This document shows positions 2,762 through 7,609 of a stretch of 34,003 nucleotides of DNA, one piece after another. The stretch is from NCBI GenBank assembly GCA_902553945.1, contig CACDMT010000014.1:1-34003 (forward strand), given 5' to 3'. How positions within the stretch are numbered: the first letter of the stretch is position 1; every line of letters starts with the position of its first letter. The stretch is from an uncultured Alphaproteobacteria bacterium. GTDB lineage: Bacteria; Pseudomonadota; Alphaproteobacteria; HIMB59; GCA-002718135. The position numbers were made by a program, and so were the translations under genes. Below the pieces are notes generated by a model. That model did no database searches and was not told the origin of the DNA. It saw only the letters and a program-made list of their open reading frames with translations.

Positions 2762-4126
2762 TTAAATTTTAGATAAAAGTTTTTCTAATTTTTTTATACA
2801 ATTTGTTTCTGCAAAAAATACTACATCATCATTTTCTTTAAATACAGTCTGACTATTTGGTATAATTACTTTTTTATCTCTTAAAATTGATGCAATTCTA
2901 ATACCTTTTGGAAGATTTAATTCTTTTAAATTTTTGTTACATAGGGATGATTCAGGTTGAATATCTGCTTCAATAATTTCACCAAAACCATCACCAATAG
3001 AATAATCATTTCTAATTTTTACCCCTCTAACTTTTTCTAAAATTTTAGAAATTGTTATAATTTTTGGATCAATAGTAATATCAACACCAATATTATTTAA
3101 TAGAGAAGAATAACTGCTGTTATTAATTAAAGTCATACAAATTGATGCTCCAGCTCTTTTTGCCAAAAGTGATGATAATATATTTACTTCATCATCTTCA
3201 GTTATTGCAATAAAATAACCTGCTTCGGATATACTTACTTCTTCTAGTATCTGACTATCCAAACCATCGCCGTTTATAACAGTTACATTTTGTAAATTAG
3301 ATGCTAGGAACTCAGCTCTTTCTTTATTAGATTCAATTAATTCAGTTTTTATGTAATTTTCAGAATTTTCTATTAATTGTGATAAGGAAAATCCTATATT
3401 ACCTCCACCGATAATTACAGCTTTTTTAGCCTGCAGTTCTTCATGTCCAAATTCCATTAAAACATCACTTAAATTATCAGTTTCAACAACTAAAAAAATT
3501 GAATCATTTTTTTCAATTTTAGTTGAGGAATTTACTATAAATTTCTTATCGCCTCTAAAGATGAACATTATATTAGCTAAATAATTTGGAAATTTTTGAG
3601 ATAGTTCTCTTACTGTTAAGCCTGAATGAGTAAAATTATCTTCACATTTTAAGCCAATCATTTTTAATTTTTTATCAGATAATTCTAACATATCTATAGT
3701 TCCTGGAGATATTAACCTTCTATACAATGCTTTAGCTACTTCTTGTTCTGGTGAGATAATTGCATCAATTGGAAAATTATTATTATTATATAAATTTTGC
3801 CATTCATCCTTAAGATAATCTTGTTGCCTTATCCTGGCTATTTTTTTTGGTATATTAAATAATGAATGTCCTATTTGACATGTTACCATATTAGTTTCAT
3901 CACTTTTAGTAACAGCAATAAGAATTTCACAATCTGCTGCTCCAGCTTTTTCAAGAACTGATGGTAAACTTGGAATACCATTAATAATTTTTACATCTAA
4001 GTTTTCTGAAACTTTTAATAATTTTTCTTCAGACTCATCTATTACTGTAACTTCAAAACTTTCTTTGGATAATTTATCAGCTATACTATAACCAACATCT
4101 CCAGCACCACAAATAATTGTTTTCAT
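2762..4126 (-). CDS. trkA: Trk potassium uptake regulatory subunit TrkA
   Basis: 454 residues, the full length of a tandem RCK protein. Each half has a Rossmann RCK_N domain followed by an RCK_C (TrkA_C) domain. The first nucleotide-binding glycine motif is GAGDVG (7-12), followed by the acidic VIDESEEK strand end; the second half begins near residue 233 with VIIGGGNIG. TrkA is a peripheral inner-membrane protein that binds NAD(H)/ATP and gates the TrkH/TrkG K+ channel. The partner trkH is not in this window. The gene lies between ntrX (11-base gap) and dat (5-base gap), the usual alphaproteobacterial position. No truncation or missing motif was seen. Confidence 0.95.
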   Translation of the reverse strand: MKTIICGAGDVGYSIADKLSKESFEVTVIDESEEKLLKVSENLDVKIINGIPSLPSVLEKAGAADCEILIAVTKSDETNMVTCQIGHSLFNIPKKIARIRQQDYLKDEWQNLYNNNNFPIDAIISPEQEVAKALYRRLISPGTIDMLELSDKKLKMIGLKCEDNFTHSGLTVRELSQKFPNYLANIMFIFRGDKKFIVNSSTKIEKNDSIFLVVETDNLSDVLMEFGHEELQAKKAVIIGGGNIGFSLSQLIENSENYIKTELIESNKERAEFLASNLQNVTVINGDGLDSQILEEVSISEAGYFIAITEDDEVNILSSLLAKRAGASICMTLINNSSYSSLLNNIGVDITIDPKIITISKILEKVRGVKIRNDYSIGDGFGEIIEADIQPESSLCNKNLKELNLPKGIRIASILRDKKVIIPNSQTVFKENDDVVFFAETNCIKKLEKLLSKI

Positions 4127-4137
4127 TTATTTAAGTT

Positions 4138-5472
4138 TTAATCAATTTTTATATTTAAAGATTTTAATTTTCGATAAAGCGCAGTTCTTTCCATACCTGT
4201 AAAATCTGAAACTTTAGATATATTACCATTAAATCGTTTAATTTGCGATATTAAATAATCTTTTTCAAATTCTGACCTAGCGTCTTTTAATGATAAATCT
4301 AGAGATTGATTTGGAGAAATAGTCGCAGTATCATCTCCCATTTGAAGTGCTAAATCATCAACTTCAAGTTCTCTAGATAAATTATTATCCTGATTTAAAA
4401 TTAAACTTTTTTCAACATAATTTATTAATTGTGATACGTTTCCTGGCCAATCGTACATTTGTAATTTTGTTAGCGCAGATGAAGAAAATTTAAATTTATT
4501 TATCCCGCCACTAATTTTATTTAGATAATAATTTAAAATTGGTAGTATGTCGGCTCTTCTATCCGATAGGGGTTTGACTTCAATAACATGTGTTGAAATC
4601 CTTTCGTATAATCTTTTTATAAAATTTCCATTTTCAATTTCATTTTCTAAATTTTTTTCTGTAATACAGATTATTTTTTGATTTAATTTTATATTATAAT
4701 CATCAAATACATTTTTATTCTCTAAAAAAAATAATAATTTTTTTTGAAAAGAAAGAGTTAAGGTTTCTATATTCAATAAAATTAGTGTATTGTTATTAGA
4801 TCTAACAAAAAGATTTTCATTAATATTTTTTTCATCATATAGGAATAAATTTTCAAGAGCTTCATTTGTTAATTTTTTAAAATCAATAGAAACTGGAAGC
4901 TTTTCATTAAAGTTTGATGCTTTGTGAATTATATTTGATAAGTGTTTTTTTCCAGAACCAAATTGTCCAGTGATTAAAAGTCTTGATTTAGAAATCGATT
5001 GATCATTAGCAAATTTTAATAATTTCTTTATAAAATCTGAATCACCAATTAAAGGGACAGATGGTACTAATATTTTTTTTAAATCTTTATTTTCATTTAT
5101 TAACAGAGAACTCTCAATTGCTCTTTTTGAAAGTATTATTAATTTATCACTATTAAAAGGTTTTTCTAAAAAATCATAAGCACCATTTTTTATAGATTTT
5201 ACTGCTAAATCAACAGTGCCATGGCCACTTATTATTATAATAGGAATTTTTGCATCTAGTAATTTAAATTCTTTTAACAATTCAATACCATCCAATTTAC
5301 TATTTGATAACCATACATCAAGTATAATTAAATCAGGCTTATTTTCTTTAAATTTATTAATCGCATCATCAGAATTTAAAGCAATGGATGTATTATATTT
5401 TTCGTCTTTCAATATTTCTGATATTAAAAAACATATATCTTTTTCATCATCTACTATTAAAACTTTATGCAT
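4138..5472 (-). CDS. ntrX: Response regulator NtrX with a degenerate AAA+ domain
   Basis: 444 residues from the ATG at 5472; an upstream TTG at 5481 would add MNK but is less likely, since VLIVDDE then starts properly. The receiver domain (1-120) is intact: acidic D8/D9, phospho-acceptor D52 in LDVW, S82 in ISGHG and K104 in LEKPF. The central AAA+ domain keeps Walker A GQFGSGKK (159-166) and a possible Arg finger in RLYERIS. However, the segment after ENLF (197-200) lacks any GAFTGA sigma54-contact loop, and the Walker B position reads TLILLNIETL instead of a TLFLDEI-type motif. The Fis-type HTH at the C-terminus (GNISKVSDFTGMERTALYRK) is intact. It is expected to be phosphorylated by NtrY, encoded just upstream with an 8-base overlap, but probably regulates without sigma54. 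Confidence 0.93.
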   Translation of the reverse strand: MHKVLIVDDEKDICFLISEILKDEKYNTSIALNSDDAINKFKENKPDLIILDVWLSNSKLDGIELLKEFKLLDAKIPIIIISGHGTVDLAVKSIKNGAYDFLEKPFNSDKLIILSKRAIESSLLINENKDLKKILVPSVPLIGDSDFIKKLLKFANDQSISKSRLLITGQFGSGKKHLSNIIHKASNFNEKLPVSIDFKKLTNEALENLFLYDEKNINENLFVRSNNNTLILLNIETLTLSFQKKLLFFLENKNVFDDYNIKLNQKIICITEKNLENEIENGNFIKRLYERISTHVIEVKPLSDRRADILPILNYYLNKISGGINKFKFSSSALTKLQMYDWPGNVSQLINYVEKSLILNQDNNLSRELEVDDLALQMGDDTATISPNQSLDLSLKDARSEFEKDYLISQIKRFNGNISKVSDFTGMERTALYRKLKSLNIKID

Positions 5473-7609
5473 TTTGTTCAAATATAATTTGTGAAGTTGT
5501 GCCAGCCATATTTTTATTTTTTTCTATTTTAATTTTTCCACCATGATCTTCTATAATTCTTTTTACAATTGATAAGCCCAAACCCGTACCTTTGTTTTTT
5601 GTTGTAAAATATGGTTCAAATATTTTCGTTATCATTTTATCATCTATGCCCACTCCATTATCTTTAATATCAATTAATATATTTTTAGATCTTAAAGATA
5701 ATACTATTTCTATAGATGGATTTGGTATTTTATCAACAGCCTCAATTGCATTTTTAATTAAATTATTAAAACATCTTGATAATTGTAGATTATCAAATGG
5801 AAAAAAAATATCATTATTAGTTTTGATAAAATTAAATTTTATATCTTTTTTTGAATTAAAATATAATAAATAAGAATCCTCAAGACATTTAGTTAAATTA
5901 TCTAATTTAATTTCTGCTTCAGGCATTCTTGCAAAAGACGAAAATTCATCAACTAATTTTCCGATATCATCTACTTGTCTTGAAATTGTTTTAGTTAAAA
6001 GAGAAATTTCTTCTTTATTATATTTATTTTCAAGAAATTTCTTTTCAATTCTTTCTGCCGATAGTTTAATTGGAGTAAGTGGATTTTTAACTTCATGTGC
6101 AATTTTTCTAGCAATATCTGACCAAGCTGCATGTTTTTCAGCCAATATTAATGAGGTTGTATCATCTAAAGCTACAACAAAACCCTCTATCTTGTTATCA
6201 TTTATTTCTTTTATAACTCTGATATTAAAATTTCTTTTATCGTCTAATATAATAAAATCATATTGAAAATTTAACATAATTTTATTTGATACTTTGAAAT
6301 TTTTAAATATATTTTTCCATTCAGGAAACAAATCTAAAAAATTAATATTAATATTAATTTTTTTTGTATTTTTAAAAAGATTTGCAACTGTTTTGTTATA
6401 CAATATAATATTAAAATCTTTATCTAATGATAAAACACCGATAGTCAGTAAACTTAATATTGCTTCAATAAATATTCTTTTCTCTTCGTCCTCGTTACTT
6501 TTTGAAATCAATTGATTTTGTTTATTTTCTATTTCAGAAATCATTTTGTTATATGAAGAAAGTAATACTTTTATTTCTTGAAATTGATCCGTTTCACTAA
6601 CTTTAGCATCAAAATTACCATCTGAAATTTTGTTTGCAGACTGTATTAGATTAGTTATTGGTTTACTTAAATTACTAGCAAGATTAAAACCTATTAATAT
6701 TGAGATTAAAATAAAACAAATTGAAAAAAGAACAAAAATCATTGAGTATGTTATTTGAACACCTGAGCTTTCTTCTTCTTTGATTGTATAAATTCTAAAT
6801 GCCTCTTTTGTTGCTGATATATGATCCCAAATATTTGTATTTAACTCTCTGTTAACCTGCATGTAAACATTATCAAGAAAACTTATTTTTTTAAAAGCTG
6901 CAATAGAATTTTTGTTTAATTGAAATATATATACTCTATTTTGATTTAATATTTCAAATACTTCTTTTGTTGGTTTTAAATAATTTTTATTATCATTATC
7001 TTTTAAGCTTAAATAAACATTACCTTCATTGCTAAAAATATAAATACTTGAAATTGTTCTTAAATTTATAAAATCACTTAAAGCTTTTTCAATTGAATTA
7101 ATATTAACTTCATTATTTTTAGAAGATTGTAGAATTTCTCTAGTTATCAATTGAGTATCAGATATTAATTCAGCTTGAATTTCATTTTCATAATTTTTAG
7201 CTACAATATTTGAATTTACAACTGCATCTCTTACAGCATCACCATACCAAGTTCGTAATTCTAAATTAAAAAATAAAGACGTTATAATAACTAGACCAAT
7301 TGCTGGGCCTAATGCCATTGCTGCAAATAAGTTAACAAACTTTATGTATAATCTTGACTCATCGTAACTTTTTTTTCTTCTAACTAGAATTAAGACAATT
7401 TGACGAATAATTATAGAAATCAATACAATTACAAAAATTACATCGGCTAATAAAAAATATTGAAGTCTTTGAGGATTTTTTACTAGATCGTTATTAGGAA
7501 GCATTAAGTAAAATGTTATTGAAAAGCTTATTAGAATTAAAAAAATTAAGAAATAGAAAGAAACCTTTGTTAAATGAAAGGATTTTAGAATCTTTGATAA
7601 ATCAAACAC
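5465..7609 (-). CDS. ntrY: Membrane sensor histidine kinase NtrY
   Basis: 714 residues, typical for NtrY. Predicted membrane segments are near 16-36, 51-76 and 90-116. A roughly 170-residue extracytoplasmic region follows, then a fourth helix near 288-311. After this come HAMP (to about 362), a PAS domain (about 375-485), the HisKA H-box with H505 in IAHEVKNPLTPIK, and the HATPase with N-box NNLIKNAIEAV (N620), DNGVGID (650-656) and GTGLGLSIVKR. All kinase motifs are intact. The start is a GTG (7609-7607); the frame is closed by a TAA two codons upstream, so no longer start is possible. It pairs with NtrX in nitrogen/redox and envelope-related signalling in alphaproteobacteria. It is the first gene of the minus-strand run and is divergent from ispDF. 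Confidence 0.95.
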   Translation of the reverse strand: MFDLSKILKSFHLTKVSFYFLIFLILISFSITFYLMLPNNDLVKNPQRLQYFLLADVIFVIVLISIIIRQIVLILVRRKKSYDESRLYIKFVNLFAAMALGPAIGLVIITSLFFNLELRTWYGDAVRDAVVNSNIVAKNYENEIQAELISDTQLITREILQSSKNNEVNINSIEKALSDFINLRTISSIYIFSNEGNVYLSLKDNDNKNYLKPTKEVFEILNQNRVYIFQLNKNSIAAFKKISFLDNVYMQVNRELNTNIWDHISATKEAFRIYTIKEEESSGVQITYSMIFVLFSICFILISILIGFNLASNLSKPITNLIQSANKISDGNFDAKVSETDQFQEIKVLLSSYNKMISEIENKQNQLISKSNEDEEKRIFIEAILSLLTIGVLSLDKDFNIILYNKTVANLFKNTKKINININFLDLFPEWKNIFKNFKVSNKIMLNFQYDFIILDDKRNFNIRVIKEINDNKIEGFVVALDDTTSLILAEKHAAWSDIARKIAHEVKNPLTPIKLSAERIEKKFLENKYNKEEISLLTKTISRQVDDIGKLVDEFSSFARMPEAEIKLDNLTKCLEDSYLLYFNSKKDIKFNFIKTNNDIFFPFDNLQLSRCFNNLIKNAIEAVDKIPNPSIEIVLSLRSKNILIDIKDNGVGIDDKMITKIFEPYFTTKNKGTGLGLSIVKRIIEDHGGKIKIEKNKNMAGTTSQIIFEQNA

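Follow-up and report, generated by a model that had tools for sequence, protein, structure and literature searches.

Degenerate AAA+ motor residues in the NtrX response regulator of a HIMB59-order bacterium and in alphaproteobacterial relatives

The window (the whole stretch of 34,003 nucleotides that was analysed) carries ntrX directly after ntrY, inside an ntrY-ntrX-trkA block. The ntrX frame opens with ATG at position 5472 and runs through 444 codons with no internal stop (Table 1). Pfam matched its product to a receiver (95 bits), Sigma54_activat (69 bits), AAA_lid_14 (51 bits), and HTH_8 (35 bits). NtrX was the best of 101 NCBIfam models with 393 bits, below the curated cut-off of 600 for automatic naming, and the nearest solved protein in a phmmer search was Brucella NtrX (5m7n, E 9e-83). 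A FastTree tree grouped the protein with alphaproteobacterial NtrX, apart from NtrC, its placement within NtrX being uncertain where long branches meet. Synteny and the top NCBIfam profile agree on the identity proposed in the initial annotation, and the protein is the orthologous NtrX of a HIMB59-order bacterium (AEGEAN-169, formerly SAR11 clade V). Related loci, 53–79% identical, came from marine single cells, MarineAlpha5 bins, and a “Pelagibacterales” SAG; a section of PMC10734472 names AG-891-K05 as representative of family GCA-002718135, order HIMB59, which is probably also the family of the window.

Table 1 Features of the ntrX locus in the window, with residue numbers of NtrX.
Feature	Coordinates	Strand	Description
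ntrX	4138..5472	minus	444 aa; receiver / AAA+ / Fis-type HTH
Receiver domain	5137..5463	minus	residues 4-112
AAA+ domain with lid	4348..5052	minus	about residues 141-375
Walker A / P-loop GQFGSGKK	4945..4968	minus	residues 169-176
Loop-1 region without GAFTGA	4789..4848	minus	about residues 209-228
Degenerate Walker B TLILLNIE	4765..4788	minus	residues 229-236; Asp replaced by Leu233, Glu by Asn234
Arg-finger stretch	4600..4620	minus	first position I285 (lost), second R291 (kept)
Sensor-II position	4432..4434	minus	Ser347 instead of Arg
Fis-type HTH	4162..4275	minus	residues 400-437
ntrY sensor kinase	5465..7609	minus	NtrY_N, HisKA, HATPase_c; 8-base overlap with ntrX
trkA-like K+ uptake regulator	2762..4126	minus	downstream of ntrX in the conserved block

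Loci of the window’s family (f1) are laid out as ispDF, then the divergent ntrY-ntrX-trkA block, and beyond it genes for aminotransferase, monophosphatase, and dehydrogenase. Inspection by eye revealed no recognisable operator in the ntrY/ispDF intergenic stretch, which spans 63–108 bp in the loci read. Family f9 (L251) has two bEBP-locus genes and a DusB-like gene between ispDF and ntrY; weak matches to ntrY and ntrX lead us to read the two as putative ntrB and ntrC, and on the plainest reading all three genes were lost in the window’s lineage. In L250, ntrY is split over two frames. The window’s own assembly (G000; 1.15 Mb, 62.8% complete) yielded NtrX as its only enhancer-binding-type (NtrC-family) protein, and its second PF00158 match reads as a probable ClpA.

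The motor residues were compared among 130 full-length f1 NtrX, 79 of them distinct, and 18 sequences of the sister family f2 (97 sequences for f1 and f2 together). Seven rows were left out of the alignment (L001, a duplicate; L029, L030, and L107, fragments; L031 and L032, sister family; L100, a broken frame), and genus g296 is represented solely by contig-end fragments. The initial annotation described intact receiver and Fis-type HTH domains around a AAA+ domain that keeps Walker A and lacks both GAFTGA and the Walker B acids, and each of these points was borne out. Pfam matched both outer domains, and receiver residues D8, D9, D52, and K104 are invariant in 97/97 sequences, as are the P-loop residues G169, G172, G174, and K175 (GxxGxGK). 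A GAFTGA-like string is absent from the window NtrX, from 79/79 f1, and from 18/18 f2 sequences. The phmmer alignment with Brucella NtrX (5m7n) pairs TLILLNIE with ILYLDEVA ungapped, onward to the invariant Gln243, and both Walker B acids are gone from the window protein. The ungapped alignment gives no cause to assume another register, and a shifted Walker B was rejected.

In the 79 distinct f1 sequences the Asp site reads L in 61, S in 10, F in two, and T, Q, K, E, Y, and D in one each, and the Glu site reads N in 78 and D in one, never Glu. Four other genera of the family read KD (G477), DN (G542), YN (G547), and EN (G548), so the Asp site kept changing and the Asn mostly stayed. Residue 236, two past the Glu site, is E in 55, D in 23, and N in one, and no DE pair results. 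The region after ENLF, initially called shortened, is so only mildly: the segment between LF and the Walker B strand has 2 residues fewer than its counterpart in Brucella NtrX and 6 fewer than that in a GAFTGA-bearing NtrC (L147). A candidate Arg finger had also been noted; the second position, R291, is kept in 79/79 f1 sequences, but at the first, 285, all 79 have I, L, M, or N and none has Arg. Loss of the sensor-II Arg, which had escaped the initial annotation, is general in f1 (S 61, A 14, R 3, H 1; S or A in 75/79). The degenerate state is common to many independent assemblies, and 79 distinct sequences from them rule out a chance or sequencing error in a single genome. One f1 genome (L100, on a contig equal in length to G486:C15, L458) has an ntrX broken by an in-frame stop.

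Only 12/235 positions of the AAA+ domain (residues 141-375) are invariant in both f1 and f2, and four of these 12 are the P-loop residues. A random draw would give such a share about four times in a million, on a test chosen post hoc and with glycines that may be structural. The f2 proteins (L031, L032, L164, L293-L309) are about 411–415 aa long and have a still more altered AAA+ domain with an invariant P-loop of the form GPxGxGK (18/18); two alignments place their Walker B differently (ND in one), which leaves its register unsure. No NtrX-like frame was found in f2 genome G038 (94% complete), nor in some other f2 genomes, and NtrX may be dispensable in part of this family.

An AlphaFold2 model built with 30 sequences (mean pLDDT 77, pTM 0.55) keeps the AAA+ core, with strands at 165-169, 194-197, 228-233, 265-271, and 295-299; its HTH part has low confidence and its domain arrangement is unreliable. 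The top fold matches were Brucella NtrX with ADP and with ATP (Z 30.7 and 30.5, rmsd 7.9 and 7.8, 371 and 368 residues, respectively). The AAA+ part matched the ATP-bound NtrC1 Walker B mutant with Z 23.9 and rmsd 2.5 over 232 residues.

For the wider class, 285 of 288 sampled genomes matched the NtrX model, some solely through other response regulators. We read NtrX from 146 genomes, one each (the top 30 scorers, 16 more high scorers, and middle and low scorers); fragments in G066, G218, and G260 and most other high scorers of the sample were left out. Gene order, checked in a few genomes, agreed with orthology in G126, G342, and G067, but in G268 no ntrY or trkA adjoins. The initial remark that some alphaproteobacterial NtrX lack GAFTGA turned out to be general: 0/146 carry it in loop 1, so its absence is not special to the window genome. 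A loose text search returned one GAFTGA-type string outside loop 1, in one protein (L200). GAFTGA absence is already in print for some alphaproteobacterial NtrX, as in Caulobacter, in part of PMC10274813. A literature search, mostly without subscription papers, found no published report of Walker B loss in NtrX.

The Walker B pair is DE in 105 of the 146 NtrX and otherwise in 41 (DN 7, NE 5, DD 4, DH 4, KN 3, EE 3, KE 3, EN 2, DQ 2, and eight single types); 41/146 is no class rate because the 146 are a non-random draw. In family f89, whose ntrX has 25–27% GC, the pair reads DQ, DH, or DN. Several related groups lost the same motor parts separately: Walker B changed at least 15–16 times on the 146-NtrX tree, the fewest changes being 16, or 15 with acid-for-acid swaps allowed. 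A 195-row tree holding more of the window’s order, which omits 12/18 f2 rows, 13 rows of a sequence set, and 14/18 paralogue rows, gave 14 changes with DD counted as intact. These counts depend on FastTree trees whose long branches come together, and some inferred Asn-to-Glu back-changes look unlikely. On a 162-row tree, 13 changes away from Glu were inferred at the Glu site, five of them to Asn, against 4.3% of changes to Asn at 12 other Glu-majority AAA+ columns (binomial p 1.4e-4, Fisher p 4e-4, the tree being uncertain).

As a control, paralogues carrying GAFTGA or one of its close variants (GSFTGA, GAFSGA, GAFPGA, GAYTGA) keep the Walker B DE in 46/46 cases (35 plus 11 further distinct sequences). 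Among the class proteins read, Walker B change is therefore confined to those without GAFTGA. GAFTGA-less NtrC-like paralogues keep DE in 8/10 cases, the other two reading NY and NG. Genome-wide loosening is ruled out, since a GAFTGA-bearing paralogue keeps DE in nine genomes with a degenerate NtrX (G067, G081, G085, G115, G119, G186, G263, G275, and G309). The 20 best NtrX-like matches in other Pseudomonadota, which are putative orthologues, include one exact GAFTGA and five GAFPGA. Six of these 20 carry Ala or Ser in place of the Glu and lack GAFTGA (L336, L340, L341, L343, L345, and L346), and Walker B erosion may extend beyond the alphaproteobacteria. The P-loop Lys is replaced by Q, R, C, or A in 8/146 class NtrX (L188, L194, L236, L239, L240, L242, L272, and L274), and nucleotide binding may be gone in some of these lineages. 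A search with HTH_8 for NtrX devoid of AAA+ gave matches in 6/23 genomes (three of the order and 20 of the class), and no NtrX-like frame was found in the stretches read for G266 and G092.

The initial annotation linked the degenerate motor to a genome without rpoN. By profile search, no sigma54 DNA-binding domain was found in G000 (62.8% complete), and rpoN was likewise not found in the near-complete order members G203 (96%, same genus), G037 (99%), and G038 (94%); the same search gave matches in 221/288 class genomes and 4/14 control genomes. The expected absence thus stood, but as an explanation of Walker B loss it is not supported. The pair is not DE in 17/46 class genomes without rpoN versus 24/100 with rpoN (Fisher p 0.12; if acid swaps count as intact, 15/46 versus 18/100, p 0.058), and no association appeared over independent tree pairs (median p 1, few informative pairs). 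Loss of rpoN is thus neither needed nor enough for Walker B loss, and we reject it as the cause of the degeneration. Six NtrC-like proteins without GAFTGA but with DE intact (L379-L384) occur in genomes without detected rpoN (G099, G084, G200, G080, G285, and G197). GAFTGA-bearing, DE-intact paralogues also occur in such genomes (L376, L377, L378, L392, L393, and L394), where assembly gaps are the likeliest explanation of the missing rpoN.

These features are best read, with a probability of roughly 0.65, as those of a phosphorylation-controlled DNA-binding switch that works with sigma70 and whose AAA+ domain is a non-hydrolysing scaffold, most likely still nucleotide-bound. NtrY would phosphorylate D52, which would alter NtrX pairing and DNA binding, and NtrX would act through contact or occlusion at promoters of the ordinary sigma70 type, without remodelling sigma54 polymerase. 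The AAA+ domain would no longer hydrolyse ATP and would persist between receiver and HTH, its P-loop holding nucleotide as a static or sensing ligand. No sigma54 remodeller is expected because GAFTGA, the Walker B acids, and a detectable rpoN are all lacking, and a phosphorylation-dependent switch at sigma70 promoters is suggested because the NtrY kinase domains, the phospho-site, and the HTH are present. Judged from these residues, the window NtrX very likely does not hydrolyse ATP; a sigma70 partnership is likely, and nucleotide binding by the AAA+ domain is also likely. Binding without hydrolysis, as the initial annotation suggested, would fit the sequence, and the best argument for a bound nucleotide is the invariant P-loop in a fast-changing domain. 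Points against this are that P-loop invariance may be structural and that, with the Walker B Asp gone, Mg-nucleotide should be bound less tightly. The missing operator upstream of ntrY and the poor modelling of the HTH and domain arrangement also weigh against the overall reading. The conserved acid at 236 (78/79 f1) might partly stand in for the lost ones.

A plain phospho-switch whose AAA+ domain binds no nucleotide at all and keeps its P-loop for structural reasons is a minority prospect. The Asp that would hold Mg-ATP is lost in 78/79 f1 sequences and the sensor-II Arg in 76/79, the eight class NtrX noted above have lost the P-loop Lys, and VpsR is described as functioning in the absence of ATP (PMC10274813, in part). 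Against it, Lys175 and the three P-loop glycines stay invariant in 97/97 sequences though most of the domain varies. Slow ATP turnover, with residue 236 or another residue replacing the lost acids, seems improbable: residue 236 is acidic in 78/79 f1 sequences and R291 is kept throughout, but no gap interrupts the alignment on either side of Walker B, residue 236 lies two past the Glu site, and the losses also include the Asp, one Arg finger, and the sensor-II Arg.

That ntrX is a decaying gene on its way to loss, with a functionless AAA+ domain, is very improbable; this domain is the least conserved in f1, and f2 has shorter proteins (about 415 aa) and genomes in which NtrX was not found, such as G038, but 130 full-length f1 frames, conserved order with ntrY and trkA, and low dN/dS argue against it. 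Median dN/dS was 0.034 for the receiver, 0.081 for AAA+, and 0.036 for the HTH (1,091 overlapping pairs at a whole-gene dS of 0.1–1, drawn from 54 copies of the gene without gaps), so the AAA+ domain is under purifying selection, less constrained than its neighbours. Median AAA+/receiver distance ratios, taken over overlapping pairs at receiver distance 0.3–0.6, were 0.85 for GAFTGA-bearing paralogues (35), 1.42 for DE-intact NtrX, 2.05 for degenerate NtrX elsewhere, 2.56 for f1, and 1.77 for f2. Disjoint nearest pairs gave medians of 1.58 (62, intact), 2.11 (20, degenerate elsewhere, p 8e-6), and 3.93 (25, f1, p 3e-11). In 27 genomes with both proteins read, the AAA+ distance in NtrX exceeded that in the GAFTGA-bearing paralogue by a median factor of 2.25 (351 overlapping pairs).

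The repeated Walker B erosion across the class is more interesting than the window case. We tentatively suggest, as a broader view that we hold to be possible though not probable, that class NtrX is a lineage that gave up its motor: GAFTGA went, the ATPase residues were freed and were lost many times, with convergent change from Glu to Asn, and the HIMB59 order would hold a natural Walker-B trap, a nucleotide-bound, non-hydrolysing phospho-switch that possibly reports the ATP/ADP ratio to transcription. GAFTGA paralogues (46/46 DE) and NtrX (41/146 read non-DE) together form a natural experiment on the passage from AAA+ motor to scaffold, and the same contrast makes the role of ATP binding without hydrolysis testable. 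HIMB59-order bacteria are streamlined marine plankton, and NtrX is the sole NtrC-family regulator found in the incomplete G000; if, as expected, it is no sigma54 motor, a different set of promoters is open to its control and its targets need to be looked for in another way. NtrY/NtrX is present in strain HTCC1062 according to a passage of PMC13198564. In R. sphaeroides, a part of PMC7240162 describes NtrX as activating several envelope and division operons and possibly repressing another gene.

Among known systems, the window NtrX differs from sigma54 enhancer-binding proteins in lacking GAFTGA in loop 1, the Walker B Asp-Glu, and an rpoN found in the genome. Its top match in both sequence and fold is Brucella abortus NtrX (5m7n, 5m7o, 5m7p), which has the same domain order and also lacks GAFTGA; unlike the window protein, it keeps the Walker B DE, both Arg fingers, and the sensor-II Arg. 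By the titles of its PDB entries, crystals were obtained with ATP and with ADP; the Brucella NtrX paper is Fernandez 2017.

The Walker B Glu is described as a gamma-phosphate sensor in part of PMC7175178. It is replaced in PspF E108Q (4qnm, 4qnr, 4qos) and in the NtrC1 Walker B mutant (3m0e), which are ATP/ADP-bound by their titles and match the AAA+ fold with Z 23–24 and rmsd 2.5–3.0 over 231–234 residues. Those are single laboratory changes, whereas the state in the window is natural, is family-fixed, and includes loss of the Asp. NtrC of Caulobacter has no GAFTGA but still needs its Walker A and Walker B residues, including the Walker B Asp in vivo (PMC10274813, in part), so the absence of GAFTGA alone does not mean that hydrolysis is absent. 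VpsR of Vibrio cholerae is a GAFTGA-less family member that acts at sigma70 promoters and does not need ATP, as stated in the same part of PMC10274813. Its structures 7v2b and 7v2v are among the fold matches of the NtrX model, but it is not an NtrX and, by PDB title, binds c-di-GMP. Rhodobacter capsulatus NtrC is a different paralogue (NtrC) and likewise an NtrC-family regulator without GAFTGA; the part of PMC10274813 that covers it describes it as sigma70-dependent, with ATP binding needed and hydrolysis not. The window NtrX shares with this type the lack of GAFTGA, the retained P-loop, and the retained phospho-acceptor Asp.
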